This document shows positions 496-50,461 of a stretch of 64,000 nucleotides of DNA, piece by piece. Every line of letters begins with the position of its first letter. Positions within the stretch are counted from its first letter, which is position 1. The stretch is from Paenibacillus sp. FSL H7-0357 (GTDB lineage Bacteria; Bacillota; Bacilli; Paenibacillales; Paenibacillaceae). The stretch covers positions 1,674,001 through 1,738,000 of the forward strand of contig NZ_CP009241.1 of NCBI RefSeq assembly GCF_000758525.1, read 5' to 3'. The position numbers and the translations under genes were made by a program. Below the pieces are notes generated by a model that worked only from the letters and a program-made list of their open reading frames with translations, did no database searches and had not been told where the DNA came from.

Positions 496-1025
496 TGATA
501 TCGTATCGTGTCCATAACCTCAAGAAATTCGATAACACAGGCGAGGATATGGAGGATCTGATTTCCATCGGCACGATCGGACTGATCAAGGCCATCGAAA
601 GCTACCGGCCCAACAAGGGCACGAAGCTCGCGACCTTTGCTGCTCGTTGTATAGAAAACGAAATTTTGATGCATTTAAGATCATTGAAAAAGACCCGCAA
701 GGACGTCTCTCTCCATGATCCAATTGGGACTGACAAAGAAGGTAATGAAATTACACTCATTGATATCCTTGGCTCCGAAGCAGATGATGTCATTAAAGAA
801 GTCGATCTCAAGATTGAAAAGAGCAAGATCTATCGTAATCTTGATATATTGGATGAACGTGAGAAGGAAGTCGTCGTCGGCCGCTTCGGCCTGGACACTG
901 GCGGGGAAGAGCGGACGCAGCGGGAGATTGCGAAGGACTTGGGGATCTCGCGGAGTTATGTGTCGCGGATTGAGAAGCGGGCGCTGATGAAGCTGTATCA
1001 TGAGTTTTATAAGGCGAAGCGGTGA
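496..1025 (+). pseudogene. sigK: Truncated sigK 3' end, copy 1
   Basis: From about codon KKFDNTGED to the stop this encodes the C-terminal two thirds of sporulation sigma-K: region 2 ([19 protein letters not shown]), the [13 protein letters not shown] linker, and the region 4 helix-turn-helix ([20 protein letters not shown]) ending in HEFYKAKR. The N-terminal part of about 75 residues, including region 1.2 and the start of region 2, is missing. Upstream of the homology is a junction box beginning near 496 (TGATATCG, then CGTGTCCATAACCTCAA). By memory of sigK it looks like a one-base-shifted version of codons LVAHIVKK. No ribosome binding site supports expression. The reading frame is intact and the protein is identical to copies 4 and 5, so it decayed recently or was once selected. 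It is read here as the right junction of an element integrated in sigK. Confidence 0.9.
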
Positions 1026-1034
1026 GAGTATCGG

Positions 1035-1059
1035 GTCTGTCTTTTGACAGACTCTTTTT
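1035..1059 (+). terminator. Intrinsic terminator after sigK copy 1 (tail type A)
   Basis: A GTCTGTC / GACAGAC stem with a four-T loop is followed by TCTTTTT, ten bases after the sigK stop. The same hairpin follows copies 2 and 3, so it travels with this class of sigK end. Confidence 0.85.
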
Positions 1060-1117
1060 GTTGTCGGAATGTGGACGTATAGTTCAAAAATAAATATGTA
1101 AAAAGTAGGATTTTCAT

Positions 1118-1185
1118 GTAAAACATTTGAAATCTGATGTTATAATTTGGATAAATATGATTCTATAGTAATTTGGAGGGGGAAA
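1118..1185 (+). promoter_or_regulatory. Conserved tail-A promoter and RBS
   Basis: An extended -10 element (TGTTATAAT, hexamer at 1141-1146) is preceded by a weak -35 region (TGTAAA near 1118) and followed about 30 bases later by GGAGGGGG, then an ATG at 1186. Nearly the same sequence recurs before 7432 and 13102, in front of unrelated genes. It therefore looks like a fixed expression signal at the element end. Promoter activity is inferred from sequence only. Confidence 0.65.
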
Positions 1186-1227
1186 ATGATTAGATCTATA
1201 GAAAAGTATTTAAATATAAAGTCATAA
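1186..1227 (+). CDS. 13-residue leader-like ORF behind tail-A promoter
   Basis: ATG at 1186 lies six bases after a strong GGAGGGGG and opens a frame of only 13 codons ending at a TAA. In the other two tail-A units this position starts the main cargo gene. Here it may be a leader peptide or the stump of a lost cargo gene; the next recognisable gene, the HNH nuclease, starts about 105 bases further on with its own RBS. No function can be assigned. Confidence 0.3.
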   Translation: MIRSIEKYLNIKS

Positions 1228-1436
1228 GTGGGAGCAGAATGAGGCAGAATTTGTTTGAAAGAGGATCACTCAGCAGAATAGCAATAAGACAGAATTGAAA
1301 TGGCATCAATGTCAGAATGAAGGAGATAAAATGTGGAAAAGATCGATCAGCAATGTTATTGGTGTGGAAAAAAAGCAACTACACGTGAGCATGTGAACTG
1401 TGACCGTATTTGTGGAAAGTTTAAAAAAGAAGACCT

Positions 1437-2345
1437 TTAAGAAGCGGTTAATAGGTGACTCCTGAATTCATCGGGAGTCATTTTTTTTAATGCCCATTGA
1501 TATCGCTCGGAGTTATAGTAGGCGATATAGTCATCCACCCTTGTTCGTAATTCCACGAGAGTCATACATGACTTGTACTCCAAATCATCCTTCATATGGC
1601 CAAAGAAGCTCTCGATGGCGGCGTTATCCCAGCAGTTTCCTTTCCGTGACATGTACTGTGTAAACCCAGCTTTGTGTACGAGAAGGCGGAATCTAGGATG
1701 AGTATAGTGCATTCCTTGATCCGAGTGTAACAGAGCTTCTGGATGAATATTGCCATCCAGTCGTTCAAGTAGTTTCTCCAGTGTTCGTTCTACAATTGGC
1801 ATGGCCAATGACGAAGAGAGGTAGTGAGCTAGAATCTGTCTCGTAGCCCCGTCTTTCACCACGGATAAATAAGCACATTGTCCATCGCCATAATGCATAT
1901 AGGTAATATCCGTCAGTAGCACTTTCTCGGGCTCTCTTTGGTCAAACTGACGCTTGAGTAAGTTGGGACACGTTTGGTGCTCTTGTGTGGCTTTTGCCAT
2001 CTTCCGATAGGGATTGGCTTGCCGGATCGTAGCAATGAGCTTATATTTTCGCATTAATCTTCGAATTTTCTTATGATTCATGATGATACCGTTCTCCCGT
2101 TCCAGCCTCATCTTCACGACCAATGCTCCTGCTCTACCCTTTAAAGCATCATAGTGTTTCTTGATGAGGAAAGCGTCACGCTCGTCCGCTTCCTCTCGCA
2201 ACTGTCTGGCTTCCTCAACAGCTTGCCAACGGTAATATCCGCTTAAGCTCACACTGGCTAGCCTGCACAAATAACGCGTCACTCGCTGCAAACCGTGCTT
2301 ACGTATCGTTTGGTTAATAATTTCAAAGCGCTCGGAGGGTGTCAA
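1437..2345 (-). CDS. IS3-family transposase OrfB (DDE catalytic subunit)
   Basis: This 302-residue protein carries the rve integrase core. The acidic triad is visible: D in LLTDITYMHYGDG, D in LLHSDQGMHY, and E in AAIESFFGHMKDDL. The N-terminal part (GLQRVTRYLCRLASVSLSGYY) is the usual OrfB helix-turn-helix-like prefix. It starts at a TTG overlapping the stop of orfA by four bases (TTGA), which suggests translational coupling or a frameshift-made OrfAB fusion. It performs cut-and-circularise transposition of its own element. Confidence 0.93.
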   Translation of the reverse strand: MTPSERFEIINQTIRKHGLQRVTRYLCRLASVSLSGYYRWQAVEEARQLREEADERDAFLIKKHYDALKGRAGALVVKMRLERENGIIMNHKKIRRLMRKYKLIATIRQANPYRKMAKATQEHQTCPNLLKRQFDQREPEKVLLTDITYMHYGDGQCAYLSVVKDGATRQILAHYLSSSLAMPIVERTLEKLLERLDGNIHPEALLHSDQGMHYTHPRFRLLVHKAGFTQYMSRKGNCWDNAAIESFFGHMKDDLEYKSCMTLVELRTRVDDYIAYYNSERYQWALKKMTPDEFRSHLLTAS

Positions 2346-2788
2346 TGTTCCCTCTGCATCTTCTGCTTTTCGAGCGCCTCTAGCTTTTTTAAAAAATCGT
2401 TCTCCATCTCCAAAAGCTTGATTCGTGCCTCTGCACGTTTGAACTTTTCCTCGATAGAAAGTTCTCCAGCTGGTCGTCTGCCCGGGGATCCCTTTCCTCG
2501 TTGTTCCTCTAGTAATCCAGCATCTCCCAGAGCATTGTACGTATTACGCCAACGGGTTAGGCAATGCTTAGGCTTCTTGCGACCGATAATATCTACGTCA
2601 AATCCCGCACTAAGGAAGATTTCCATTGGAGTTTGACCCTCCTTATAGGCCTTAACCGCAGCCAACTTAAACGTTGACGAATAGGTGATACTCTTTTCCG
2701 TCACGTTCTCTACATTTGGATTGTTCTCTAGTAGTTTAATCTCTTTTTCGTTGAATATTTTTGAGCTTCCTCTTGTTTTATTATTCAT
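2342..2788 (-). CDS. IS3-family transposase OrfA (HTH subunit)
   Basis: This 148-residue protein starts at an ATG with GGAGG eight bases upstream; a longer frame extends to 2839 without an RBS. A helix-turn-helix domain (SITYSSTFKLAAVKAYKEGQ) is followed by a stretch with WRNTYNALGDAGLLEEQ and a C-terminal leucine-zipper-like coiled coil (RAEARIKLLEMENDFLKKL). It recognises the IS ends and dimerises or pairs with OrfB. Confidence 0.9.
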   Translation of the reverse strand: MNNKTRGSSKIFNEKEIKLLENNPNVENVTEKSITYSSTFKLAAVKAYKEGQTPMEIFLSAGFDVDIIGRKKPKHCLTRWRNTYNALGDAGLLEEQRGKGSPGRRPAGELSIEEKFKRAEARIKLLEMENDFLKKLEALEKQKMQREH

Positions 2789-3628
2789 GAAGGCTTCCTC
2801 CGCTATTTCGCTATTTCGATTAAAACACAAATGACCCATAAGAGGGTCACTTTTTTCAAAGTTTCCATCTTACGGGTCACAGTTCACATGTTCCACCAAG
2901 GTGTCTTTTTCCAACAGATAAAGATGTAGGGGAACATTTTAAACAATCTTTCCGTTCCGAATTAATCACCGTTCCTTCGTGTGACGAGCATAACTCTTTG
3001 AAATCAGGTGAAGATGAATATCTAATGGCTTGTTTGACTGCAAGAGTTGGCAACAATCTTATAGCGTATGCACATACACAAACCAAGCTGAGACGATCTT
3101 TGCGGCTTCATAGAAATTTGTTAGAAATTGAGAAGAATTTAAACATTTATAATTAATGAAAGAGAGGTTCCTGTCTCAATAATCAATCTTGATGTTCCTC
3201 GGTTAAGTTATTCTTTTGAAGCAATTGCGAGAGCTCTATTTTTTCATAAGTATCGTGCTCAGCATAAAGGGAAATGTGTCGTTGCATCGGATATGTTTTT
3301 ATCACCAGATGCATCGGCTGCGGGATCAAATCAATTTATTAGAAATGGAATAAGAATGTTTGAAAAGGAGCAAGGTTACTGGAATACACCAATACAAGGG
3401 AAAAATCCTATGGTTTTTACATATCAATTTAGTCCGTTAGATGGCTTTGGGTCGCATACCTTAGCTTTAAAATTCTATGAACAAACCAATGTATATGTTT
3501 GCATGGCGGATATGATTAGACTTAAACCTTATGAGAAGGAATTTGATGTGGCTAGTAAAATTTTTGGACTTAGGAAATAACGTGGGTCGTGAGCGAACAA
3601 GTTTTTAATTCATTTTAGAGGTGAGTTA

Positions 3629-4591
3629 ATGAGAAATCAAATCGAATTAAATAAATGTATAAGTTATCTAACCCGATGGATAAGCGAGATACGATTACAA
3701 AATGCGATTAGATACTACGATATTAATAAAATTTCAGAAAACTTATCTGCGTTTATCCTAAATGAGCTTTATGGATACAATTTAATTAATGCTAATAGTG
3801 AAGTCACTAATGCTTGTGCTGTTGATTTAATAGATCGTGAAAATAATATTGCTGTTCAGGTTACTTCAAGGGTTGATGGTAAAAAAATAAAAAAGACATT
3901 ATCTGATTTCATTGAAAATAGAATGGAGCTGTCCTATAAAAATGGTATCAAATTTCTAATCTTAAATTTTGAAACGGTAAAGAAAGGAAACTATAAATAT
4001 AATAGTATCTACAAGGATTTTGACTTTTCAACTGATGTAATAACAGACAGGATGCTTATAAAAAGAATAGAAGAAGTATATCAAACGAACTATAATCAAT
4101 TCTTATCTTTATTAAAAAAAATGCGGCATGAATTTGGCGCTGAAAATGTAAGGATTAAAGATGATCTTGAAATCCTAGAGGAAATCTATAATTGTTTTGA
4201 TAGACCTGCCTTTTCAACTCCTTTTTATCAAGAAAGTAATTTACCAGGTTTTATCAAAGCTATTGAAGGAACGATAGAAGCTCTGAACACTGGAGTATAC
4301 AGACTCAGAGATGGAAGTGTCATTAAGAACATAAGTCCGAGATCAAAATTAAATGATAAAGGGATAAGAGAAGTAGTATCTTCGATAATCGATGACCTTA
4401 TTGACTTGAGGTATTTGTATGAAGAGCTTATTCGCAAAAACGAAATTAAGTTATGTGGATGTAATGATGAAAACTGTGGAGTTCACTTCATTTCACCTTA
4501 TGCAATTGAAGAAATGGATAGAGCGAGGAAGAACATACTCTTAAAATTTAAAGGTATTTATAGGGGTTTTGAAATGAAGATAAGATACTGA
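3629..4591 (+). CDS. SMEK-domain protein
   Basis: This 320-residue protein starts at ATG 3629 behind GAGGTG. Residues 1-150 match the SMEK domain: the DINKISENL motif, LNELYGYNLINAN, and the AVDLIDRENNIAVQVTS strand with the QVTS signature. SMEK domains are known at the N-termini of bacterial conflict-system proteins such as ABC-3C-associated components, where they are thought to sense or bind a partner. The C-terminal part holds a small cysteine cluster (CGCNDENC) that could bind zinc. It is 48 bases after the broken HNH gene and may have been co-expressed with it. Role in anti-phage defence is inference from domain and neighbourhood. Confidence 0.7.
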   Translation: MRNQIELNKCISYLTRWISEIRLQNAIRYYDINKISENLSAFILNELYGYNLINANSEVTNACAVDLIDRENNIAVQVTSRVDGKKIKKTLSDFIENRMELSYKNGIKFLILNFETVKKGNYKYNSIYKDFDFSTDVITDRMLIKRIEEVYQTNYNQFLSLLKKMRHEFGAENVRIKDDLEILEEIYNCFDRPAFSTPFYQESNLPGFIKAIEGTIEALNTGVYRLRDGSVIKNISPRSKLNDKGIREVVSSIIDDLIDLRYLYEELIRKNEIKLCGCNDENCGVHFISPYAIEEMDRARKNILLKFKGIYRGFEMKIRY

Positions 4592-4649
4592 ATATGACTC
4601 GGTGCCTGTGATGAGTGTGCAGTATAACAAGTAACTAAAAACAGCTAGA

Positions 4650-4681
4650 GCAAGCGGACCCAGTGACACTGGCCCGCTTGC
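4650..4681. terminator. Hairpin between convergent genes
   Basis: A long stem (GCAAGCGG...CCGCTTGC with an inner CCAGTG/CACTGG) lies between the end of the SMEK gene and the end of the opposing 599-residue gene. On the minus strand it is followed by GCTGTTTTT, so it best fits a terminator for the minus-strand pair, possibly used in both directions. Confidence 0.6.
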
Positions 4682-4693
4682 AGCTCATGTCTA

Positions 4694-6493
4694 TTACCAC
4701 CATTTGTACCTATTACGCTCCAGCTTTTTTTGGTCTGCGTTCTTTTTGTGATTCCTTCTTCCGAACAATTCGTCTTCACGAGCAATTGTGGGGTCATACC
4801 AGTCAGCCTTGGCTTTTGCCCATGAAATCCATTCTATTGTCTTAGGATTGAAGTTTCCAGATACCTCAACAGCTGCAATGTAACGTCTCATTTTGCAAGC
4901 GATATCGTAGTCCTCCGAAAGATTTTCTAGCATAAGCGTTTGGTCGACTTCTTCGTTAAAGCGTTGACGATATTCCTCTTTTCGACGTTCCTCTTCTTTG
5001 CGTTTGCGTTCGGCTTCTTCTCGGGCCTCGCGCTCTTGCCGGAGTATATCAGATGCCTCGTAAAACGCGATCATTAGATCGCCAAGGCGTTCTTCAATAA
5101 CGTATGATTTGCAATCACGAAAGCTTTTAGCACTGTATACCGAAACTGTAATCCGGCCATTGTAAACATAGTCATGCTTTCTGATTTTTGGTTTTGACGC
5201 CCATGTATTGCGGCGCTTGTCTTCCTCATACTGTAGTAGTTGAAGATTTTCTTCTTTAGTAGGAATATGCTTAATCTCGTCCTGTGCTTCTGTCACTGAA
5301 ACAGAGACCGTTTCGCCATTGACAATAAATCTTAGATCATTAGTTAGTGAGCATTCGAGCGGTTCCATAGCTTTGATTAGCGCATCAAGGATGTGTAGCA
5401 CCCGAGGCAAAGATTCTTCAGACACTGCATCGGCAAGAAAGAGTGTAGTATCCATACTTCTCCGATTGTAACCTCTTGATTCTTGTTCCTTGTGTTTTTT
5501 CTTCCATTCCGTGATTGCTCTGCGGTGGGCTACAATTGTCGAATGCATTTTAGCGTTTTCACCGGGAAGCATGATTTGCGTTGCAACGGAAAGAATGACA
5601 CGTCTATCTTCTTCATTCAGAAAGCTAAGTGTTTCCTTTTCAATCTGTGGAGTAAAATCCGTTCCAGTTCTTGCGCCTGATTTTTTGGTGGGCTTGCTGC
5701 TTATCGGAAGCGGTATGCGAGTTACAGGTTTATCTGCACGAAGCTTGGCCCAATATCCAACTGGAGGTGTGGGGATATCTAACGATTGACAGATCTTGCG
5801 GATTGCGACATCCGAGACAGCATATCGCTTTGCTATTTCGGTTACGGGGGCCAGCCATACTTCATTGTATAAGATCTCACGATCATAAATATTGTAGGTT
5901 CGTCCAAATTGCTCATACGTTTCTGGTGGTCCAATCATTTGAGCGACTTCGCTGGGTTCATCTTTCTTTGTTGTCGGAGGAAAGAGTATCTGTTCCTCAA
6001 CTTGTAATGCAGAGGATTCGGCAACAACCGCATCCTTTGCAGATCTACCGGAATTTTCATCAGTTATGATTTGCTGCTTCTTTTTACGAGTAGACGGAAT
6101 GGTTCTTGAAATTACAACTTTCTCGTCTGCCGGTTCCGGTAATTCCAGTTTGGTTACAGGCTTGCTGAAATTGAGCTTGGTCCAGTATCCAGACGCGGGT
6201 ATCGGAATGCCCGCCTCTTTAATCTGCTTCATAAGGTGAGCGTAAGTAAGATTATACTTTTTGGCTACTCCAGCAACAGATATACTCCAGATTTCTTCAT
6301 ACAATTGCTTGCGAGTCATTTCAATATCCGAATACTCAGGCATAGCACTTTCTTCCTTTCCTTCACTCGACCAGTTCTCTTCAATAGTGGGAAAAACCGC
6401 AGACGTCATCCTGATGGTTTGCTCTGTTTGTACTACTTGTTGATCTTCTTTAAAAGAATCACTAAAACTCGTTTCATTATCTTCATTCTGCAT
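4694..6493 (-). CDS. Uncharacterised protein with duplicated HTH-like module
   Basis: The 599-residue protein has two copies of one module at roughly 58-118 and 210-268. Each begins Y(N/E)E(I/V)W, continues into a helix-turn-helix-like segment (VAKKYNLTYAHLMKQIKEAG; IAKRYAVSDVAIRKICQSLD) and ends GYW(A/T)KL..KPVT...LP. A charged, Glu/Arg-rich coiled coil (about 490-530) precedes a C-terminal SWAKAKADWYDPTIAREDELF segment. No catalytic motif is recognised. The start is uncertain because no good RBS precedes 6493. It sits 20 bp behind the 118-aa gene in the same direction. A degraded copy of its C-terminus lies at 13681-13792 fused to the sigK tip, so this gene is a recurrent passenger of the elements. 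DNA binding is inferred. Confidence 0.6.
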   Translation of the reverse strand: MQNEDNETSFSDSFKEDQQVVQTEQTIRMTSAVFPTIEENWSSEGKEESAMPEYSDIEMTRKQLYEEIWSISVAGVAKKYNLTYAHLMKQIKEAGIPIPASGYWTKLNFSKPVTKLELPEPADEKVVISRTIPSTRKKKQQIITDENSGRSAKDAVVAESSALQVEEQILFPPTTKKDEPSEVAQMIGPPETYEQFGRTYNIYDREILYNEVWLAPVTEIAKRYAVSDVAIRKICQSLDIPTPPVGYWAKLRADKPVTRIPLPISSKPTKKSGARTGTDFTPQIEKETLSFLNEEDRRVILSVATQIMLPGENAKMHSTIVAHRRAITEWKKKHKEQESRGYNRRSMDTTLFLADAVSEESLPRVLHILDALIKAMEPLECSLTNDLRFIVNGETVSVSVTEAQDEIKHIPTKEENLQLLQYEEDKRRNTWASKPKIRKHDYVYNGRITVSVYSAKSFRDCKSYVIEERLGDLMIAFYEASDILRQEREAREEAERKRKEEERRKEEYRQRFNEEVDQTLMLENLSEDYDIACKMRRYIAAVEVSGNFNPKTIEWISWAKAKADWYDPTIAREDELFGRRNHKKNADQKKLERNRYKWW

Positions 6494-6513
6494 TTCATGA
6501 ATTTTATTTGGTA

Positions 6514-6870
6514 CTAAGATTGCGTCGAATTGTTTGATCCCCCCAATCCCTCGTTTTCGCTTAATAGAAAAACCAAATCCCGTTTCATTTCTTCGAATTG
6601 ATTAATAATCGTATTTAGATTTTTCTCAATATTTTCAACCTGAATTGCATTGATCTTTCCGTGATTATAGGCAATAAGTCGCTCCGGTACGATGGAATAA
6701 GACCAGCTCTCTCTGTATTGCTCTTCATTATTGATTGCAAAGCCAATAGGCAACAAATCGTTGCGCATGCCGAGTGTCAGCATATTTGGAGATATTCCCA
6801 AATAGTCCGCAGCAATTTTAATTGTAATTTTGGGCATATTTCTGATCTCATCATCCGAATACTTAGCCAT
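6514..6870 (-). CDS. Small MerR/excisionase-like helix-turn-helix protein
   Basis: 118 residues, with a strong RBS (AAGGAGG seven bases before the ATG). The N-terminus (MPKITIKIAADYLGISPNML) is a winged-helix pattern typical of excisionases and phage regulators that read IKIAADYLGIS. A tryptophan-containing strand (YRESWSYSIVPERLIAYNHG) follows, then a coiled coil (EKNLNTIINQFEEMKRDLV). It is first in a two-gene minus-strand operon with the 599-aa gene and lies immediately left of sigK copy 2. A recombination directionality factor or small repressor is possible, but no direct evidence supports either. Confidence 0.55.
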   Translation of the reverse strand: MAKYSDDEIRNMPKITIKIAADYLGISPNMLTLGMRNDLLPIGFAINNEEQYRESWSYSIVPERLIAYNHGKINAIQVENIEKNLNTIINQFEEMKRDLVFLLSENEGLGGSNNSTQS

Positions 6871-7008
6871 ATGTTACACCTCCTTAATATGGTCTCAGCT
6901 ACATCGGTATATTGGAATTTATATCCTGATAATACTATAAAATGGTGTGTAGTACAGTTGTTTTTCAGTGCTCATGTAACGGTACCAGGGCTGATGTGCC
7001 AAATCCCC

Positions 7009-7269
7009 CTGATTGATATTCTTGGATCTGAGACAGACGACATTATTAAAGAGGTTAATCTCAAGATCGAGAAGAGCAAGATCTACCGCAACCTCGACAT
7101 TCTGAACGAGAGGGAGAAGGAAGTTGTTGTCGGGCGGTTCGGCCTGGACACTGGCGGGGAAGAGCGGACGCAGCGGGGTATCGCGAAGGATCTCGAGGAG
7201 TTATGTTTCGAGAATAGAGAAGAGGGCGCCATGAAGCCGTATCATGAGTTTTATAAGGCGAAGCGGTGA
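7009..7269 (+). pseudogene. sigK: Truncated sigK 3' end, copy 2 (degraded)
   Basis: Homology begins only at LIDILGSE, in the linker between regions 3 and 4, and ends with the usual HEFYKAKR stop. Relative to other copies it has a deletion in the region 4 recognition helix (AKDLEELCFENREEGAMKPYH), so the helix-turn-helix is destroyed. The left junction box is absent; sequence upstream (6900-7008) is unrelated. The tail-A terminator and promoter follow directly. Confidence 0.85.
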
Positions 7270-7279
7270 GACTATCGGT

Positions 7280-7305
7280 TCTGTCTTTTGACAGACTCTT
7301 TTTTG
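7280..7305 (+). terminator. Tail-A terminator after sigK copy 2
   Basis: CTGTC / GACAG stem, TTTT loop and a T6 run. Same element as at 1035 and 12947. Confidence 0.8.
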
Positions 7306-7324
7306 TCGAAATTTAAACATGTAG

Positions 7325-7427
7325 TTCAAAAGAATTATGTAAAAAGCAGGATTCCCATGTAAAACATTTGAAATATGATGTTATAATTTGGATAAATGTG
7401 ATTCTATAAAAGGTAATTTGGAGGGGT
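7325..7427 (+). promoter_or_regulatory. Conserved tail-A promoter and RBS for the Mrr operon
   Basis: Extended -10 TGTTATAAT (hexamer 7382-7387) and GGAGGGG at 7420-7426, five bases before the GTG at 7432. Upstream sequence (AAAAAGCAGGATTCCCATGT and onward) is conserved with the other two tail-A copies. This is the only promoter-like signal before the five-gene defence-like set. Confidence 0.65.
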
Positions 7428-7431
7428 TAAG

Positions 7432-9090
7432 GTGGCTCGGAGTTTTGGAAGTACTGTTAATAAAATGATTAAAGAAACTGCGAAAGCGCAACGTGCAGCT
7501 GAAAGATCCAGAAATGCCGCTATTCGTGAGCAGGAAAGACATTTAAGATTGCAGCGGCAATATGAACGTGAGAATGAGCGTGCTATTAGGCAGTCAATAC
7601 GCGAACAAAAGGCATATGAAAAAGAACAAAAGGTACTATACATAGAAGGACGAAAAGAAGAAACGAATGATTATAATGAAGAAATTCTTTACCGGCTAAA
7701 TGAATTTAAAACAATTATAAGTGAAACGCTCGGTGTGGATGACAAGATCTCATTCGAATCACTTTATAAGAAGGATGAATATCCTGCGTACGTTGAACCC
7801 CACGTTAAGCGACTTCCAGCTAATTCGATACCAGAGCGAGAAAGCTTTTTTGCAGGAGTGACTATGGAAGCCCCTTTAATAGAGAAAATCACCGGCCTCG
7901 GGAAAAAAGCGCGTCTCAGATCTATTGAAGCAGCGGAGAATACATACAACTATGCCCTTCGTAATTATGAGTCTGCAGAAATGAGAAAAAACGAACTGAT
8001 TAAGGAAAATGAAACATTCCTCAACTCTGCAAGAGCTGAATATGATGAAGCAAAGCGTTTATATCTTGAGGAAATAGCTTCTCATAATAGTTTCATTGAT
8101 GATTTTAAGAGTAGCTATTTCGATAAAGACAAAGAGGCCATTGAAGCTTATAACACATTGATTTTGGAACGTTCTAACTACAGTGATATCTTTCCGCAAA
8201 CCTTTAATTTGTTTTATTTGGAAGAAAGCAAAGAATTATTAATAGAGTATGAATTACCGAATGTAACGGCTGTACCGAAGAATAAAGAATATAAATATAC
8301 ACAGAGCCGAGATGAGATCAAAGGCGTTCCGTTTAAACCTAAGGAATTAAATGAAATCTACTCTATACTTGTGGCTTCAATAGCACTCCGTACACTTCAT
8401 GAGCTTTTTGAAGCTGACCATGGCAACCATTTGGATTCTGTTGTATTTAATGGAGTGGTATTTACAGTGGACTTAAGTACAGGGCTCGATATCCGGCCTT
8501 GTATTTTAACTATTCAGACCAAGAAAGACGAGTTCACTAAATTTGATCTTGCTAGGGTGGATATCCTTGCCTGTGTAAAAGGCCTTAAAGCCCAGCTCTC
8601 CCCTTCAGTAACTGAACTCACTCCAGTTAAGCCAATTGTTGATCTTGTCATGTACGATAAACGATTTGTAAATGAAAGAGATATGATATCTACGCTTGAT
8701 GCACGAACCAATCTTTTGGAGATGGACCCTTTTGATTTTGAACATCTGGTTTGTAACTTGTTTTCGAAAATAGGTCTTGAATCCAAACTGACACGTTCTA
8801 GCCGAGACGGTGGAGTTGATGTCATTGCTTTTGATCCGCGTCCGGTATTTGGTGGGAAATACGTAATTCAGGCGAAAAGATATAAGAATACTGTAGAGGT
8901 AGCTGCAGTTAGGGATTTATATGGTACCATGATGAACGAGAATGCATCCAAGGGGATTTTGGTTACCACATCAACGTATGGACCCGATGCCAGAAGTTTC
9001 GCCAAGGACAAGCCCATTGAATTAATCGATGGCCGGGTGCTTTTGCATATGTTAGAGGAGCAGGGGATTCATGCGAAGATACAGTTGTGA
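7432..9090 (+). CDS. Mrr-family restriction endonuclease with coiled-coil N-terminus
   Basis: A GTG start is placed by the strong GGAGGGG upstream. Of 552 residues, 1-75 are a highly charged Arg/Glu/Gln coiled coil. Another long helical stretch spans about 165-250. The C-terminal 120 residues form an Mrr catalytic domain: FDFEHLVCNLFSKIGL, then SRDGGVDVIAFDP and YVIQAKRYKN, giving the D...QAK nuclease signature and the usual VRDLYGTM..... ASKGILVTT continuation. Mrr-like enzymes are type IV (modification-dependent) or accessory nucleases that cut foreign DNA. The gene leads an operon with a membrane protein, an AlbA_2 protein and two small proteins. Confidence 0.85.
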   Translation: MARSFGSTVNKMIKETAKAQRAAERSRNAAIREQERHLRLQRQYERENERAIRQSIREQKAYEKEQKVLYIEGRKEETNDYNEEILYRLNEFKTIISETLGVDDKISFESLYKKDEYPAYVEPHVKRLPANSIPERESFFAGVTMEAPLIEKITGLGKKARLRSIEAAENTYNYALRNYESAEMRKNELIKENETFLNSARAEYDEAKRLYLEEIASHNSFIDDFKSSYFDKDKEAIEAYNTLILERSNYSDIFPQTFNLFYLEESKELLIEYELPNVTAVPKNKEYKYTQSRDEIKGVPFKPKELNEIYSILVASIALRTLHELFEADHGNHLDSVVFNGVVFTVDLSTGLDIRPCILTIQTKKDEFTKFDLARVDILACVKGLKAQLSPSVTELTPVKPIVDLVMYDKRFVNERDMISTLDARTNLLEMDPFDFEHLVCNLFSKIGLESKLTRSSRDGGVDVIAFDPRPVFGGKYVIQAKRYKNTVEVAAVRDLYGTMMNENASKGILVTTSTYGPDARSFAKDKPIELIDGRVLLHMLEEQGIHAKIQL

Positions 9091-9129
9091 AGTGCTCTAT
9101 GAGGAATCCGTATTAGGAAAGGTGTATTA

Positions 9130-9870
9130 ATGGATATCATATTGAAAATTGTGCTCAGTGGTACTATCCCGATACTTATAAACTTGGTGATAAAAGCATT
9201 AACATCTTCGAGTTTTGATAATTTGTTTTATTTGAAGCATCAGAAAACACAACAAAGAATTATTTTATATGTGGTACTTGGAGTTCTTTTTTTAGCTTAC
9301 GGTTCATTGCTAACGGCAGTTTATGCTTCATTTGTAAAAATGAAATACACCATTGTCGTAGCCGCAATCTTCATAGTGTTATTCTTATTGGGGATTATGA
9401 TTTTAGGAATCTTATGCAGCATTAAATGGATGAAAGGAAAATGTTCAGTCAAAAAATTTACATTATCAGAAACTAAGGCTAACCGATTAACCTTTACCGT
9501 CTTCATGTGTAACATGGTCGTATTTGCAGTATCATTTTATGACACAATGAACATAACTGGTTTGGAGAGAACAGAGTATGTGGTCAAGATTCTAGTCTGT
9601 ATAGGACAGTTCTGTTTATACGCATTCCTTATTTTGAAATCTTATTTTTACTTGATAGACTTTACCCGACATCAGTGGAATTATGTCATTTCGCCAACTC
9701 CAGAAGATATTGATAAAAGGTATCTTTATGTGCTTTACTCACTTTCACCAACCCAAATGGTATTGTCGGAGAGCATTGAAAACGTAGAAAATCCGTCGAG
9801 TGTTTATTTGTTTGATATAACAAAACAGACGTATATTCACTTTGAGCGAGTGGCTACGTTGAAAGGATAA
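9130..9870 (+). CDS. Polytopic membrane protein of the Mrr operon
   Basis: 246 residues with about five hydrophobic segments (near 5-25, 40-65, 70-100, 120-140, 152-172) and a soluble C-terminal tail of about 70 residues. It starts at ATG 9130 behind AAAGGTG, 39 bases after the Mrr gene, and ends ten bases before the next start, consistent with co-transcription. No family was recognised. In a defence cassette such a protein could be a membrane effector or anchor; that is inference from position only. Confidence 0.6.
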   Translation: MDIILKIVLSGTIPILINLVIKALTSSSFDNLFYLKHQKTQQRIILYVVLGVLFLAYGSLLTAVYASFVKMKYTIVVAAIFIVLFLLGIMILGILCSIKWMKGKCSVKKFTLSETKANRLTFTVFMCNMVVFAVSFYDTMNITGLERTEYVVKILVCIGQFCLYAFLILKSYFYLIDFTRHQWNYVISPTPEDIDKRYLYVLYSLSPTQMVLSESIENVENPSSVYLFDITKQTYIHFERVATLKG

Positions 9871-9879
9871 GGGGAGAAG

Positions 9880-11049
9880 ATGATTAAACTGCGAACTTAT
9901 GATTTAGAAGATGAAGTGAAGGCACTGATTTTGACTGAACGTGAAGATGATTACTGGGATTTTAAAGTGAAACACCATTTGAACAAAGCCAACCTGCTAC
10001 ACGATATTATTTGTATGGCAAATAATCGGGTTGATAGGGATGCTTACATTATTTTTGGGATCTCTGATGTAACCTTTGAGGTAGTGGGCATTGAGAATGA
10101 TGATAATCGAAGAAATCAACAGCAGATGATAGACTTCTTAAAATCAAAAAGATTTATCTCCGGAATTAGGCCTAGAGTTGAGTTAAGGACATTAATGTTG
10201 GCTGGCCATAAGATTGATATTTTAATCATCAAAAATAGTACTGATACACCATGTTTCTTGACTGAGGACTTTTCCGATAATGGTAGGAAGGTCAGAACCA
10301 ACCACATCTACACTCGAGTGGGCGATACTAATACAGACATAGATAAAAGCGCAGATATTAATAATGTAGAGTACCTTTGGAAAAAGCGATTTTTGCTAAC
10401 ACGTTCTCCATTTGAGCAGATTATAGAACGTCTCAAAAACAAGAACGAATGGGAAAGAAACGAAGATACTTATTTCAATGTTATAAAACCTGAGTGTACT
10501 ATTGTTTTGGAATATGACGATGAGGATCGTGAACTACTACCTGAATTTTATGCATATGCAGTCAGTAATCCATCGACAATGTATCAAATGTTGAGTGTTA
10601 AATATTATGGTACTCAACTGTATGGTAGACAGGTAGTGGTATTAGATAGTGGAAGGTACATTACCCCTACACCTGATTGGGAGTTTCTTTATTTCGGAAA
10701 TTACGGTTTCCGTACTGATTATGCCTTTAAATATTTTATGAAAAATAGTCCTTTGTATAAATTAAACGAATTCTTATACAATGAAGAACAACATGAAGCA
10801 AGCATTGCTCGAAGAAGATTCTTCGAAGTCGTTCTGTTGTTTGAAGACTCACTAGAGAAGGATGCGTTTCTTGAATATGTACATCTGAACAAAGAAGACT
10901 TCTTGAACAAGTTGGCTGCCTTAGATGGAAAGTGGTCATGGATTGAGGCTAACACCAAGCGACAAGAAGAGCAAGTTGTAATTCGTTTGAAAACAGGGAA
11001 AGTATTAAATCAAATGCTCATTAATTTTCGTCAGTGTACATTTAAATAA
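9880..11049 (+). CDS. AlbA_2/Schlafen-like putative ATP-binding protein
   Basis: 389 residues. The N-terminal 150 residues fit the AlbA_2 (Schlafen AlbA_2, formerly AAA_4) domain: E..DYWDFKVKHH, LLHDIICMANN, then DAYIIFGISD and a later IDILIIKNSTDTP strand with YTRVGDTN. This domain occurs in putative transcriptional regulators, Schlafen nucleases and defence proteins. The C-terminal half has no recognised fold. RBS GGGGAG is five to six bases from the ATG. Third gene of the Mrr operon, ten bases behind the membrane protein. Confidence 0.7.
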   Translation: MIKLRTYDLEDEVKALILTEREDDYWDFKVKHHLNKANLLHDIICMANNRVDRDAYIIFGISDVTFEVVGIENDDNRRNQQQMIDFLKSKRFISGIRPRVELRTLMLAGHKIDILIIKNSTDTPCFLTEDFSDNGRKVRTNHIYTRVGDTNTDIDKSADINNVEYLWKKRFLLTRSPFEQIIERLKNKNEWERNEDTYFNVIKPECTIVLEYDDEDRELLPEFYAYAVSNPSTMYQMLSVKYYGTQLYGRQVVVLDSGRYITPTPDWEFLYFGNYGFRTDYAFKYFMKNSPLYKLNEFLYNEEQHEASIARRRFFEVVLLFEDSLEKDAFLEYVHLNKEDFLNKLAALDGKWSWIEANTKRQEEQVVIRLKTGKVLNQMLINFRQCTFK

Positions 11050-11069
11050 AATCAATAAATTGAGGTGTA

Positions 11070-11354
11070 ATGAAACAAATGGAAAATTATAATGAGAGCA
11101 TTATTGAGATTATAACTAAAGTCGAAACGCTCTTTGAAGCGGCTATTTTAGCATCAAATAAAGCAGATGCTAAACCGTTTCTCAGCGAAATAAGATCACT
11201 AGAAGTTAGTTTAAATCTAACTCCATATCTAAGGATTGTGTTTAATGAATTTCTGGCATATGCGGAGAATGCTTCCGGTCAAGTGAAAGAAAAAGAACAC
11301 TGGAAAGCAGCAGCTGAACAAAGCCTATACAAATTAACTTCTGGATTAAGATAA
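11070..11354 (+). CDS. Small helical protein (94 aa)
   Basis: An acidic, all-helical-looking 94-residue protein with no recognised family. GAGGTG precedes the first ATG at 11070 closely; an in-frame ATG at 11079 is also possible. It lies 20 bases behind the AlbA_2 gene in the same direction and probably belongs to its operon. It could be a small regulatory or immunity subunit, but nothing in the sequence proves that. Confidence 0.5.
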   Translation: MKQMENYNESIIEIITKVETLFEAAILASNKADAKPFLSEIRSLEVSLNLTPYLRIVFNEFLAYAENASGQVKEKEHWKAAAEQSLYKLTSGLR

Positions 11355-11410
11355 CAGAAGTTAAAGAATAATCATTAAGCTCAACAAATAATGATTCTAT
11401 TAAGCCTCTT

Positions 11411-11473
11411 CTGGAGGAGAAAGTGGCCTGTAGTTTTGGATGTACAGTTAATAAAAATGAACAGCGCTCATAG
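11411..11473 (+). pseudogene. Stub duplicating the RBS and start of the Mrr gene
   Basis: GGAGGAGAAAGTGGCCTGTA and the following bases align with 7420-7460, the RBS, GTG start and first dozen codons of the Mrr gene (V-A-C-S-F-G-C-T-V-N-K against M-A-R-S-F-G-S-T-V-N-K). A stop at 11471 ends it after 16 codons. The remnant shows that a second Mrr-type cargo gene, or a tandem duplication, once stood directly before the 215-aa gene. Confidence 0.65.
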
Positions 11474-11481
11474 GAGGGACT

Positions 11482-12129
11482 ATGGCTAACATTTTTGAAA
11501 ATTTAAAGTTATTAAAAAAGGATATGGAAGATAGAGGTTGGGTAATTGACTCGTTTATATTTAGCTATAACAATGAAGATTTTATCGTATTAGTAAAGTT
11601 GTTTGTGGGAAATGAAAAAAAGAAAGAAAAATACGCACTTGTAAAATTAGAATTCTTAAGACAGTCTGATTTAAATAGTAGTTTGCAAGTAGAAGCAAAC
11701 TCTAATGCACTGTTTATTGATACAAAAACATTGAGAGAGTATTTTAAAATAGAATATAATGAAAATCTGGGAGATATACTTCGACAATTTAAGGAATATT
11801 TTTCGAGGTTCATTCCCATAGAAGTGGTTGAGGATAAGAGTGATGACCAATTGAGAGTAATTGTTGCTTATTTGAGTAAAAGTGACTCGGAAAATCCTAA
11901 TAAATTGTATTGTTATCAAGTTAGAAGGAATGGATACAAATCGGACGGAACGTTAGCTCAAAGAAGTTTTTACAATGATAATAAGACTAGAATCTTGCGG
12001 AGAATTTTGTATACAAAATTAAAAAATGAAAAAAATATAAGTTTTTGTTATTCGGAAAATAAAAATGATGAAAATACCGATGAAATAATATTAGCAAATT
12101 GGGTTAAAAAACAAAAAGTCAAGTATTGA
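11482..12129 (+). CDS. DUF6037-like conserved hypothetical protein
   Basis: 215 residues starting MANIFENLKLLKKDMEDRGW behind AGGAGGG. The pattern (N-terminal FENLKLLKKDM, FIVLVKLF, ALVKLEFLR, EYFKIEYNENLGDILRQF, a SKSDSENPNKLYCY strand and an NDNKTRILR motif) resembles a family I associate with DUF6037, seen as passengers near restriction genes. No catalytic residues can be named. It follows the Mrr-start stub by eight bases, so its expression signal may derive from that duplication. The DUF label is from memory and was not checked. Confidence 0.5.
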   Translation: MANIFENLKLLKKDMEDRGWVIDSFIFSYNNEDFIVLVKLFVGNEKKKEKYALVKLEFLRQSDLNSSLQVEANSNALFIDTKTLREYFKIEYNENLGDILRQFKEYFSRFIPIEVVEDKSDDQLRVIVAYLSKSDSENPNKLYCYQVRRNGYKSDGTLAQRSFYNDNKTRILRRILYTKLKNEKNISFCYSENKNDENTDEIILANWVKKQKVKY

Positions 12130-12239
12130 GTCACAGTTAAAATGCAAATACTAATTTCGTCCCACTATGCCACATCCTTTCTCGGAGGAAATAACTTCAC
12201 TTTAATCGGTGTCTGAGCCGTAGACGAAGGTACTAAAAA

Positions 12240-12937: not shown

Positions 12938-12946
12938 GATTATCGG

Positions 12947-12972: not shown

Positions 12973-12999
12973 TTGTCGAAATTTGGACATGTAGTTCCA

Positions 13000-48101: not shown

Positions 48102-48392
48102 AGCAGGGATTGAGAAACGACGATATTCTCTCATCAGTTAAGGATACACGAATGTCACTGCCAACCTAGCAATCCTGCGGATGCTCTCATACCACCTTAT
48201 TCTGGCAATGAGAATCGTAAGTCTCTGGGGAACCGCTGCTCTGCGTTATTGGTCAACTGCGGCTTGCTTCAACAGATTATGGGTAAGTGCACACGTATTT
48301 TTCGTCGGCTATCCATCAGAGCCTTTCCACCATCATCATAAGTCTCGTCCTAGTCAGGTTGTTCATCAAAGTATTTCCACTTGATTAGCTTA
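48102..48392. other. Gap without supported genes
   Basis: No coding frame with an RBS or recognisable family. It lies between the palindrome and the end of the anti-sigma gene. Confidence 0.3.
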
Positions 48393-49241
48393 TCATTTCG
48401 GGCTTTCGTTACTCATCCAGCTGTCTACATAAAATTCACCGTTATAGAACTCATGCTCTGTAATTTCTTTGAGCTTATTCTTGGCTTCTTCAACAGTATC
48501 ATATTCGCCAATGACCGCGATGAAATTACCGGTGGCTGTTTTTATAAAGGAGATATCCTCATCTGGATATAGCTCTTCGAGAATACCCATTTCCTCTCCT
48601 AACAACATTTCTCCCGTACGAATAGAGAAAACCTCATGAGGCGGCGCCGATTCGCCGTTTGGAGTCAGCTTCAGTTCAAGATATCCAGGATCTTTAAATT
48701 CAGATATGGAATGCTTTACACCATCTTTCAGTTCAACGACGAAACGCATTGCCGAGTCATCCAAAATGATATTGCGATAAACATCCTTCACTAGGGGAAG
48801 AGTATGCAAATCTTTCTCAATCGTTTCATAATCAAATTGACGGGTACCATTGAACGTAAAGATTAGACGGTTAGGTGCACCTTTCTGTTCAACTGTATAG
48901 GAAGGTACATTGGCAACAGGCTCGTTCCCAGAACTAAAATGAATTTTAAGTGTATTCTCTGCCGCTTCCGTTCCCACTCTGGCGCCGTCTGTCCGCTCGC
49001 CACCTCCGCCAAATTGCAGAACCTGAACAATCTTCCCAACTACAGGTATTTTAGACATCGCGTGTGATACACTTGGGATGTTAACGGTGAATAGGAGCAT
49101 AATACAGGCCGCAATTAATGAAGCGAAGCGCATTGTTCTAAGGGATCTCTTACGAGCGGATGCGCTTTTTTGAGCATTATAAATGACGCTGGCAAGCTGT
49201 TCAGGAATTTTGATATTCTCGTAACGATCTTTTCCCATCAT
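48393..49241 (-). CDS. Membrane-anchored anti-sigma-like factor
   Basis: 282 residues. A cytosolic N-terminus of about 38 residues rich in Arg/Lys (SASARKRSLRTMR) precedes one membrane helix (FASLIAACIMLLFTVNIPSV); the extracytoplasmic part of about 220 residues carries a DUF4179-like segment and a C-terminal PDEDISFIKTATGNFIAVIG-type repeat. Topology and a four-base overlap with the ECF sigma gene identify it as that sigma factor's anti-sigma partner, which would hold the sigma at the membrane. There is no ZAS zinc motif. Confidence 0.75.
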   Translation of the reverse strand: MMGKDRYENIKIPEQLASVIYNAQKSASARKRSLRTMRFASLIAACIMLLFTVNIPSVSHAMSKIPVVGKIVQVLQFGGGGERTDGARVGTEAAENTLKIHFSSGNEPVANVPSYTVEQKGAPNRLIFTFNGTRQFDYETIEKDLHTLPLVKDVYRNIILDDSAMRFVVELKDGVKHSISEFKDPGYLELKLTPNGESAPPHEVFSIRTGEMLLGEEMGILEELYPDEDISFIKTATGNFIAVIGEYDTVEEAKNKLKEITEHEFYNGEFYVDSWMSNESPK

Positions 49242-49753
49242 ACGTTATCAACCTCTCCCTCAATCAAATAATGTTTTAATTTTTTTATAATACGGTAAAA
49301 TTTAGATTTGACTGTATTTTCCGATAGAGAAAGCACTTGCGCCATTTCCCTAAAGGGAAGATTCACAAAGAATTTCAAAATAATATAAGTTCTCTCTTCT
49401 GGTACGAGCCGGTCCAGTGCATCATACAAATCCATTCTTTCTTCCAGCGTCGCTCCCCGTTCAGTAGCCGCAAGCTCTTTTCCATGATCCTCGATATAGA
49501 CCGTCCGCTTGTTGCGGCGTACATGATCAATAGCTGTATTAATCACAATACGTGACATCCAGGTATCAAAATAGGTCACGGACTGCATTTTGCCATAAGC
49601 GAGGTACCCTTTGTAAGTAGCCTCAGATACGATGTCCAGCGCTTCTTGCTCATTTTTTACATAACAGTAAGCGAGGCGGTATAGCTTATCCCGAATTACT
49701 CCGAGCTTTTCGCTGTACTGCTCTTCTTTTAATTTTATGTTGTTAAATCTCAT
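49238..49753 (-). CDS. ECF-type RNA polymerase sigma factor
   Basis: 171 residues. Region 2: DKLYRLAYCYVKNEQEALDI, VSEATYKGYLAYGKM, YFDTWMSRIVINTAIDHVRR. Region 4: LPFREMAQVLSLSENTVKSK, FYRIIKKLKH. It is expected to direct transcription of a stress regulon and of its own operon. It is translated with the anti-sigma gene (ATGA overlap). Upstream sequence may hold its own promoter but none is definable. Confidence 0.9.
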   Translation of the reverse strand: MRFNNIKLKEEQYSEKLGVIRDKLYRLAYCYVKNEQEALDIVSEATYKGYLAYGKMQSVTYFDTWMSRIVINTAIDHVRRNKRTVYIEDHGKELAATERGATLEERMDLYDALDRLVPEERTYIILKFFVNLPFREMAQVLSLSENTVKSKFYRIIKKLKHYLIEGEVDNV

Positions 49754-50019
49754 TACTCTTCGTAAACCCCCTTCTAAACATAAGTATTAGAGTCACTGCA
49801 CGTATACCAGGCCTGGTACTTGATCAAGCACGTTGATCTTTCATAGCTAATGGTTAGACTGATGAAGGGAGGAAATAGTTTTACGATGTTAAAAAACTAT
49901 TGGATGAAATATGGACGGTTACTCGTTGACGCAGGATTTGCGCACGGCGAATTATGATTTTCCCATACTGATGATAACGGCAAAGGAACGTATTGAAGAT
50001 AAGAAAAAAGGGTTTCTGG
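49754..50019. other. Gap upstream of the ECF operon
   Basis: No gene recognised; the promoter of the sigma/anti-sigma operon should be here. Confidence 0.3.
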
Positions 50020-50070
50020 CCGTCCATGTCCGAAATCTTTAGTTAGGTTATCTACTTCAACTATTGCCAT
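50020..50070 (-). pseudogene. ABC ATPase 5' stub
   Basis: A good RBS (AAAGGAG) precedes an ATG reading MAIVEVDNLTKDFGHGR, the typical start of an ABC ATPase with its A-loop region. After 17 codons the homology stops and the frame becomes unrelated. The rest of the gene is deleted. The Walker A fragment at 29606 comes from a similar kind of gene. Confidence 0.6.
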
Positions 50071-50421
50071 CGTAAAGTAATCTCCTTTCGTTTTGTCTAT
50101 TGATGTTGTTTCATGGTAAATCTGCTTAATGACTGTTTGCGAGATTTTATTGCCGTTATATTTAATCCCCAGCATTGATTGTGTAGTTGTATCCTATAAA
50201 TCCTGTATGAACTAAATATGAACTTGTGGATAAAAATTAAAAAAATAATTTAAAATTAGGAATCATACTGAAAGCGAAAGGGATCGATTGAACTTTTTTT
50301 CCAATGTGACGCACAGTATTTTATGGTAAAAATTTGCTGGAAACTCGAGAACGGGACAATCATGCTTAATACGGAGGAATAGGACTTACAGTTTGATGAT
50401 ATAGCGAGGAATAATCTAATA
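50071..50421. other. AT-rich gap left of the sigK scar
   Basis: Nothing supported; sequence is AT-rich without coding signal. Confidence 0.3.
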
Positions 50422-50461
50422 TTTTTGACATTGCAACCGTGTCTATAACCTCAAGCGGTGA
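50422..50461 (+). repeat. sigK junction scar: left box joined to the sigK stop
   Basis: TTTTTGACATTGCAACCGTG then TCTATAACCTCAAG is the same left box seen at 35109, but it is joined directly to AAGCGGTGAG, the last codons of sigK. All sigK coding sequence between is gone. The boundaries share CAAG/AAG, so a deletion across a short repeat could have produced it. Confidence 0.7.

Follow-up and report, generated by a model that had tools for sequence, protein, structure and literature searches.

Restoration of a target gene by the element that enters it is known from e14 and phage 21. Both restore the 3' end of icd, each as a single insertion made by a tyrosine integrase, and they exchange less of the gene than in the case described below. 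Integron cassettes have attC hairpins as their sites. In SCC elements only the final bases of rlmH are exchanged. The SCC and ECC islands are described as insertions by a large serine recombinase (LSR; CcrAB) in the 3' region of the conserved gene rlmH, and as composite tandem islands that include pseudo-SCC elements (PMC6222049, PMC5964201); the SCC repeats are given as about 50 bp (PMC6222049). For the skin element of Clostridioides difficile, the LSR gene is described as the immediate upstream neighbour of the sigK 3' part (PMC5025042).

Here we consider a stretch of 64,000 nucleotides of Paenibacillus sp. FSL H7-0357 (NZ_CP009241.1, positions 1,674,001 to 1,738,000; hereafter the window), in which displaced 3' ends of sigK alternate with units of cargo. 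From comparison with related genomes we think it probable that an LSR family targeting sigK codon 67 built tandem rows of this kind, each unit replacing the sigK 3' part. In the open-licence literature searched, no paper among those listed describes sigK 3'-end arrays or serial entry at sigK for Paenibacillus.

sigK remnants and cargo in the window

The window has nine sigK footprints, seven solid and two marginal (Table 1), and all nine lie on the plus strand, as the first-pass annotation had stated. Four are nearly complete displaced 3' ends (footprints 496, 12428, 20141 and 28845) and three are partial (7009, 33377 and 35109). The displaced fragments are 82-89% identical to the intact sigK of the strain, the longest being about 500 bp. 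The fullest copies had been said to share their start at KKFDNTG, and indeed the first base of all four nearly complete copies is that of the AAG/AAA of this motif, at sigK codon 67 (K67). A stop codon common to all footprints had also been claimed; the tail at 13793 is an exception, its stop being other than that of sigK. Protein alignments begin at aa 63 instead of 67 because the sequence preceding the core encodes VHNL against AHIV by chance. This sequence is a 26-nt box, TGACATCGnATCGTGTCCAyAACCTC, found directly 5' of codon 67 in copies 496, 20141 and 28845, with three matches in the window and none in 100 shuffles. No recognisable box precedes KKFDNTG in copy 12428, for which seven stops are counted only when the stretch starts left of the core, positions 12461-12937 being open. 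Two more weak sigK traces lie right of the window (genome 1778573 and 1806465).

The cargo had been called rich in defence genes over the first 20 kb. Testing of 20 window proteins against PADLOC bears this out: this part holds an Mrr-like type IV nuclease, PDC-S50, Hachiman HamA and HamB, and a SMEK-domain protein with a partial match to the Aga nuclease model. A family search with the 599-aa protein gave no match. Beyond about 20 kb, 16 sampled proteins are mainly metabolic, transport and regulatory.

Table 1. Positions of sigK remnants, P half-site boxes and cargo units in the window
Feature	Position	Strand	Content or basis
P half-site box (putative), 26 nt, one mismatch to consensus	496..521	+	motif scan, 0 in 100 shuffles
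Displaced sigK 3' end, codon 67 to stop, frame open	522..1025	+	alignment
Cargo unit	1026..7000		IS genes 1437-2839 (-); SMEK-domain protein 3629-4591 (+); 599-aa protein 4694-6493 (-)
Partial displaced sigK 3' end, aa 142-233	7001..7269	+	alignment
Cargo unit	7270..12433		Mrr-like type IV nuclease 7432-9090; PDC-S50 (Schlafen/AlbA_2) 9880-11049; DUF6037 11482-12129
Displaced sigK 3' end from KKFDNTG, without recognisable P box	12434..12937	+	open frame 12461-12937
Cargo unit	12938..20140		Hachiman HamA 14538-15356 and HamB 15298-18465
Marginal sigK tail, 21 identical bases, stop codon not that of sigK	13793	+	
P half-site box (putative), exact consensus	20141..20166	+	motif scan
Displaced sigK 3' end	20167..20670	+	joined with box, open frame 20140-20670
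Cargo unit	20671..28844		glycosyltransferase, fatty-acid hydroxylase, patatin phospholipase and ABC1 kinase-like genes
P half-site box (putative), exact consensus	28845..28870	+	motif scan
Displaced sigK 3' end, codon 67 to stop, open frame	28871..29374	+	alignment
Partial displaced sigK 3' end, aa 205-233	33377..33461	+	alignment
Displaced sigK 3' end, two blocks, internal deletion	35147..35322	+	alignment
Degenerate P box fused to final nine sigK bases (marginal)	50424..50461	+	

The junction in related genomes

The box joined to codon 67 was found 99 times among 100 genus genomes, the junctions being spread over 48 of them, and it occurs in 79 of 394 genomes at the family level; these counts, and not the mapped stretches described below, which are a biased sample, give the frequency of the junction. 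The reversed pattern had no match in the same 100 genomes. The left breakpoint is fixed at codon 67 and not scattered at random within sigK. In 47 aligned junctions (28 genomes) the sequence is conserved from -26 to -1 and falls to noise level by about -33. These results bear on the possibility that homologous recombination or transformation alone is responsible, with DNA recombining in the sigK 3' half and bringing its neighbours along without any site-specific enzyme. The displaced fragments of the window are long and similar enough to the intact gene for some exchange, and partial fragments in the mapped stretches have varied ends. One fixed left breakpoint and a conserved half-site outside the homology, recurring in 48 of 100 genomes, speak against such exchange, as does the use of this half-site in the attP of LSR elements (below), and we consider homology alone highly improbable as an explanation.

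Around sigK, 41 stretches of 16-200 kb, taken mainly from the best sigK matches, were mapped. Fragments of sigK occur in 34 of the 41, and all 100 are on the same strand as sigK; the 100 are alignment pieces, six of them 5' pieces, and merging leaves 82 remnants right of sigK. Six of the seven stretches with no fragment are only 19 kb long. With five candidates scored per genome, per-genome copy numbers of sigK are to be read as "at least". A simple age order might predict that completeness falls with distance from sigK; the 82 remnants show no such trend (Spearman -0.006, p 0.96).

Two insertion sites in sigK can be distinguished, namely, codon 67, used in the rows described here, and about aa 113, used by elements of three genomes (G058, G071 and G090). 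The latter we take to be the skin site of B. subtilis. In G058, and by position in G071, one displaced 3' half is interrupted near aa 113-116. The interrupting stretch measures 63-65 kb and has a different type of LSR gene at its end, from which it is probable that this displaced half was once part of the resident sigK.

The recombinase family and its attachment site

An intact sigK and a serine recombinase beside it had been predicted left of the window. The gene is there, complete, at genome positions 1647743-1648445, 26 kb left of window position 1; the recombinase is absent, the codon-67 LSR family having no match in the source genome. Genome-wide searches for PF07508, PF00239 and PF00589 gave no match in the row or close to it, between 1647 and 1818 kb. 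PF07508 has just two matches in the genome, at 2.35 and 4.86 Mb, and the PF00239 match nearest to the row is an 82-aa frame at 1883438. Within 200 kb around the intact sigK there is neither an LSR nor a 5' sigK fragment.

Relatives do carry the enzyme. In four of the 100 genus genomes (G002, G006, G075 and G098) an LSR gene lies 370-925 bp upstream of intact sigK. Among 30 named relatives of this LSR (48-100% identity), 26 have sigK sequence at a distance of about 2 kb or less, with 22 of them adjoining a sigK fragment and 4 a complete sigK, and in 13 of the 30 the match ends no more than 10 nt from the box motif. Split sigK only is found in 13 of the 22 genomes examined that have an LSR of the family. 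Elements with a complete sigK, a displaced 5' fragment and an LSR are present in G006, G075 and G098, and further ones in G321, G307, G320, G311, G313 and G286. The arrangements thus form a series from a skin-like split, through an element with a complete sigK, to a unit with the 3' part only. Five of 46 genus genomes searched (from the 100, picked mainly for multiple sigK matches) have no PF07508 match at all, and sigK rows occur among them. Plasmid and phage records gave no close relative of the LSR, every match being below 60% identity: at most 32.1% for plasmids among the matches listed (20 of 41), and at most 28.7% for phages (18 matches).

The sigK 5' junction in G006, G075, G098 and Brevibacillus invocatus carries an inverted copy of the box, so that box-AA-inverted box would make up a palindromic attP. 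Judged from these junctions, the 26-nt box is the left half-site (P) of the predicted attP of the LSR family targeting codon 67. A short att pair for an LSR group would follow from this reading together with the codon-67 site, and a 28-nt motif can locate such rows in any genome. In P. cookii, an LSR copy (L190, that is G012) ends in the box, followed by non-sigK-like sequence.

The genomes with split sigK only, and the apparent skin-type remnants in the rows of G058 and G071, would suit a pile of dead skin-type elements that lost excision, sigK having been restored by later events. Against this, the 200 kb around the source-genome sigK hold no LSR or 5' fragment, and the intact genes of sister genomes bear foreign 3' halves, as described next, whereas ordinary elements would leave the gene split. 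Such an origin appears improbable to us.

Mosaic sigK genes and shared units

Over 780 pairs of sigK genes the two halves diverge alike (mean 0.831 in the 5' and 0.833 in the 3' half), but identity exceeds 0.93 in the 5' half of 44 pairs and in the 3' half of only 4. This comparison and the flank-matched one do not include the second complete sigK present in G058. In 27 pairs the mismatch rate rises from about 1% to about 9% past nt 198; as similarity of the 5' half was the criterion for choosing these pairs, they are biased towards breakpoints at nt 198 or beyond. The closest pairs, G008/G041 and G066/G083, have no mismatch in 198 nt of the 5' half, and G056/G057 has one in the first 198 nt, followed by mismatches from nt 200. 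For 20 flank-matched pairs the estimated change point is spread more widely, from nt 122 to 317; one pair, G026/G030, is more alike in the 3' than in the 5' half, and another, G008/G084, has about the same identity in both.

Several of these change points are within the 5' half (nt 122-173), which would fit a different history, namely, that whole elements with a complete sigK insert and that their left arm is then deleted by homologous recombination. Recombination of the displaced 5' fragment with the 5' half of the new gene would remove the LSR and leave intact sigK, cargo and the displaced 3' end in place. Elements of the required kind exist in the genomes listed above, ordinary attP x attB integration would suffice, and both the excess of 3' over 5' remnants and the usual absence of the LSR would be accounted for. 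In G000, 226 bp upstream of sigK match a stretch left of the G017 sigK that is apparently within the left arm of an element. However, crossovers would be expected across a repeat of about 320 bp, and the closest pairs are unchanged in the 5' half up to the core, although their choice for similar 5' halves favours that outcome. Left-arm loss seems to us rather unlikely, but it is to be taken seriously.

Comparison of relatives unit by unit, which the first-pass annotation had suggested, revealed one unit at two depths. Positions +67419..+71189 of G066 match +1057..+4827 of G086 at 99%, and the unit adjoins sigK 3' sequence in both genomes: in G086 it is directly behind intact sigK; in G066 a 66-kb unit lies to its left, and it is preceded by a box and a displaced 3' end located 66 kb right of sigK. 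The left flanks are colinear (92%), with no 5' sigK fragment at that place in G066. The coding part of the displaced G066 copy is only about 0.85-0.95 identical to the G086 3' half, and so is not nearer to it than the present G066 3' half (0.917). Being between species, with remnants of its own in G086, the pair is weaker than a true empty site, the link being the 99% flank; the difference may represent gain or loss of the unit, as the pair does not fix the direction. When intact 3' halves were compared with displaced fragments as before/after pairs over the 41 stretches, the closest match reached 97.4%, within G037; across genomes the highest identity was 96.0% over 302 nt, for a fragment of G008 and G083. 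Reordered units in G008 and G041, which resemble shuffling, were also considered as moved cassettes and rejected, since the sigK fragments adjoining the shared unit are only about 83% identical; the boundaries are also ambiguous.

Proposed mechanism

Serial insertion at one point of sigK, with the 3' part restored by each unit, had been proposed from the window and is well supported by the unit at two depths and by the breakpoint, the half-site, the strand and the mosaicism, which, like the association of the LSR with the site, are present in the sequences themselves. We infer that this LSR family catalysed the row insertions. Against this count the absence of the enzyme from the source genome, the genomes with no PF07508 match and the lack of a box at copy 12428. 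The attachment site would be sigK, cut by the LSR at the AA dinucleotide of codon 67, and elements of the family would often split the gene, like skin. A derived Paenibacillus form would come with a sigK 3' part of 504 nt, and its insertion would leave a working hybrid of the resident promoter and 5' part with the 3' part of the newcomer. The former 3' end would be shifted right, behind the end box of the newcomer (half-site P). Since the restored sigK would again be a target, units would stack in tandem with the newest beside sigK and always leftmost, and the boundaries would retain a P box and a dead sigK 3' end. If the recombinase acted in trans or was lost, a row of cargo units without the enzyme would result, as in the source genome. 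The row appears to derive from sigK-intervening elements, to have shed the need for excision and to pile up in tandem, as SCC islands do at rlmH.

The travelling form of a unit would be a circle with a hybrid site, made up of P and the sigK 3' part. It is quite possible, though we lean slightly against it, that the system is a serine-recombinase counterpart of the integron, in which hybrid-site units recombine with sigK and the sigK site regenerates at each step. Substrates and products would then be of one type, which would make a directionality factor unnecessary for either insertion or excision, and the units could be reversible, integron-like cassettes. To our knowledge, no reaction of a hybrid P/sigK site with sigK is known for serine integrases. 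If this integron-like scheme is true, the gene of a developmental sigma factor would be a permanent entry gate that swaps its own 3' part with every unit.

Serial replacement of the 3' part would show a route by which an element interrupting an essential developmental gene escapes timed excision. Intermediate stages are possibly preserved in living genomes, the order being a split gene with LSR, a complete sigK lying some 40-50 bp past the junction and presumably transcribed from the resident promoter, a complete sigK with its upstream region, and the 3' part only. Throughout the family of these spore-formers, sigK would be the point at which imported genes enter, in the window with defence systems among them. 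It is predicted that the sigma-K of these species is a repeatedly renewed chimera, which is relevant to phylogenies and to sporulation.

Comparison with known systems

With skin of Bacillus subtilis and C. difficile the rows, as interpreted here, share LSR-driven insertion inside sigK, as well as junctions at a fixed recombination core within the gene. As in C. difficile, the LSR gene of relatives here immediately precedes the sigK 3' part. It lies inside the element at the sigK junction, where the source genome has none. Skin splits sigK and needs excision in the mother cell, whereas in the rows a complete gene exists, only 3' ends are displaced and the tandem units are many. The contrast with skin drawn in the first-pass annotation is thus half right: sigK is whole here, but the same LSR family makes skin-like elements that split sigK at codon 67 elsewhere.

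SCC resembles the rows, as interpreted here, in LSR insertion in a conserved gene, and also in tandem units with attachment-site copies in one orientation. It differs in its repeats of about 50 bp and its target, the rlmH 3' end, whereas in the rows the exchange extends to 504 of 702 coding nt, which stay behind as fragments, the target is sigK, and the source-genome row has no PF07508 or PF00239 match. Mobile integrons also have a fixed entry point, a single orientation and units without their own recombinase. They use a tyrosine recombinase (IntI), attC hairpins and single-gene spacing, unlike the rows, where a serine recombinase is implicated, no PF00589 match occurs, and a half-site P with coding sequence recurs at a spacing of about 1 to 66 kb. 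In islands at tRNA and protein genes, as in the rows, the target gene regains its 3' end from the incoming element; e14 and phage 21 are single insertions by tyrosine integrases, and the exchange is shorter than in the sigK rows.

sigK and its remnants

The genome of Paenibacillus sp. FSL H7-0357 is a single contig of 7.69 Mb, and its full-length sigK (233 aa) lies 26 kb left of the window (genome positions 1674001-1738000), on the side where the first-pass annotation had placed an intact gene. The 3' remnants of sigK follow to its right, every one on the sigK strand. Nine footprints had been proposed, the fullest of them starting at KKFDNTG. The four nearly complete ones all begin at K67; those at 13793 and 50422 are marginal. 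In three of the four, K67 is immediately preceded by a box, TGACATCGnATCGTGTCCAyAACCTC, which has three matches in the window versus none in 100 shuffles.

sigK and sigK-like segments in FSL H7-0357 (genome positions unless marked)
Feature	Position	Strand	Remark
Full-length sigK	1647743-1648445		233 aa
3' remnant	1674522	sigK strand	
3' remnant	1681001	sigK strand	
3' remnant	1686434	sigK strand	
3' remnant	1694167	sigK strand	
3' remnant	1702871	sigK strand	
3' remnant	1707386	sigK strand	
3' remnant	1709147/1709238	sigK strand	
Weak trace	1778573	sigK strand	
Weak trace	1806465	sigK strand	
Marginal trace	13793 (window)		21 nt
Marginal trace	50422 (window)		degenerate box + nine bases

At window positions 20140-20670 and 28844-29374 the box is in frame with a displaced 3' end, giving 176-aa open frames, possible candidates for truncated sigma factors. 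Upstream of the full-length gene, 226 bp (C1:1647380-1647604) are 94% identical to a stretch of the related genome G017, where the counterpart sits between a displaced 5' fragment and the intact sigK; these bases may be a left-arm relic. The description of the cargo as defence-rich stands for this window only: among 20 of its proteins compared with PADLOC, HamA, HamB, an Mrr-like nuclease and PDC-S50 matched clearly, and a partial Aga nuclease, a patatin effector and PD-T4-6 more weakly.

The attachment site

In an alignment of 47 junctions from 28 genomes, the 26 nt left of the AA core are conserved at 1.0-2.0 bit, except for one position at 0.6 bit. Conservation drops to 0.6-0.7 bit at the T-rich positions -27 to -30 and reaches noise by about -33. 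Sites were selected by positions -17 to +1 together with sigK bases, a criterion that does not bear on the conservation at -26 to -18. In three genomes of the genus, G006, G075 and G098, the intact gene has a displaced sigK 5' fragment (aa 1-69) 12-28 kb to its left, which runs on into the inverted box. Joined, the two half-sites read as a palindrome (about 26 nt, AA, 26 nt); the attP of a serine integrase usually takes this form. Brevibacillus invocatus has the same pair at a split sigK (aa 3-66 and 61-232), which encloses about 9 kb with a large serine recombinase (LSR) gene at the right end. A related right half-site is found beside displaced 5' fragments in G074 and G017.

The full sigK query matched in 100/100 genomes of the genus, and among the matches listed (at most five candidates per genome scored) many genomes have extra ones starting at query base 186 or 199. 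A scan for the junction motif ATCGTGTCCAyAACCTCAArAArTTCGA that tolerated up to 3 mismatches gave 99 hits, spread over 48 of these 100 genomes, and none for its reversed control; in the family the motif is present in 79/394 genomes and 10/19 genera (reversed control, 2 matches). Fragments of sigK were found in 34 of 41 mapped stretches, always on the sigK strand (100/100).

The recombinase

An LSR of 548 aa with Resolvase, Recombinase and zinc-ribbon domains is encoded 370-925 bp upstream of intact sigK, on the same strand, in G002, G006, G075 and G098. Including these, 30 named relatives were found in genome contigs, and in 26 of them sigK sequence lies no more than about 2 kb away (4 complete, 22 a fragment). 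The fragment alignment begins or ends at aa 61-69 in 19/22 cases and extends further left in three (stretches L171, L175 and L177). Of the remaining four relatives, three end at a contig border and one, in P. cookii, has the box but no sigK. The P. cookii LSR (L190, ~11618) ends in the box, followed by sequence unlike sigK, which may point to a second target or to an element residing in a different gene. A recombinase had been predicted beside the intact sigK left of position 1; the FSL H7-0357 genome has no LSR of this codon-67 family.

Three consecutive tyrosine recombinase genes lie upstream of the LSR in G006 (L052:14984-18206), on the strand opposite sigK. PF00589 was seen in these, and G002 and G098 have a similar trio; it resembles the recombinase-in-trio arrangement. 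Short frames with a Recombinase domain match (about 265-298 aa) occur inside the sigK row of G039 (C1:1586902 and 1612560), with similar ones in several genomes.

Forms of sigK

The state of sigK was inspected in 31 genomes, 22 of which have an LSR of the codon-67 family. In 13 of the 22 sigK is only split (both halves on one contig in 10), six combine a complete sigK with a displaced 5' fragment (G321, G307, G320, G311, G313, G286), and three have a complete gene without such a fragment (G012, G174, G134). In G321, G307, G320 and G311 the complete gene starts 38-50 bp past the aligned fragment end, and in Paenibacillus sp. CF384 (L179) within about 50 bp of the junction, with what looks like a ribosome-binding site between. 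In CF384 this leaves little room for a promoter, so a gene in this position is presumably transcribed from the resident one. By contrast, G006, G075 and G098 retain 105-118 bp of conserved upstream region before the complete gene, and window-type arrays retain the 3' part alone, in frame. We infer that the split, complete and 3'-only forms may be steps of one series.

The left flanks of G066 and G086 are colinear (92%), and the stretch directly behind sigK in G086 is found 66 kb further right in G066 (99% over 3.8 kb), preceded by a box and a displaced 3' end. The coding part itself reaches no more than about 0.85-0.95 identity, so the pair shows a single unit at two depths, not a clean empty site. 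A displaced 3' half in G058 breaks off at aa 113-116; sequence for the remainder (aa 110-227) is found 65 kb to the right, preceded by an LSR gene of a different type. At least here, it seems that a unit entered a sigK already interrupted by a skin-type element and restored an uninterrupted gene; positions suggest the same arrangement in G071. G058 also has two complete sigK genes about 26 kb apart (C1:1641146-1641847 and 1667029-1667727).

Replacement of the 3' half

Over all 780 pairs of 40 sigK genes, the halves have equal mean identity (0.831 and 0.833), but identity exceeds 0.93 in 44 pairs for the 5' half versus 4 for the 3' half. For 27 pairs selected by similarity of the 5' half, mismatches jump after nt 198, from about 1% to about 9%. 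Among 20 pairs selected instead by left flank, the right half is more diverged in 19 (in one by 0.003 only), G026/G030 going in the opposite direction, and change-point estimates range from nt 122 to 317.

Mechanism and relation to known elements

Sequence comparison establishes a fixed site, its half-sites, a common strand, replaced 3' halves and association with the LSR. The codon-67 LSR would have catalysed the unit insertions, the units arriving as circles bearing a hybrid site. Alternatively, some cases may be explained by the insertion of a whole element whose left arm was then lost through homologous recombination. Skin elements and SCC islands are already known; of tandem sigK 3'-end arrays no description was found in the open-licence literature searched.
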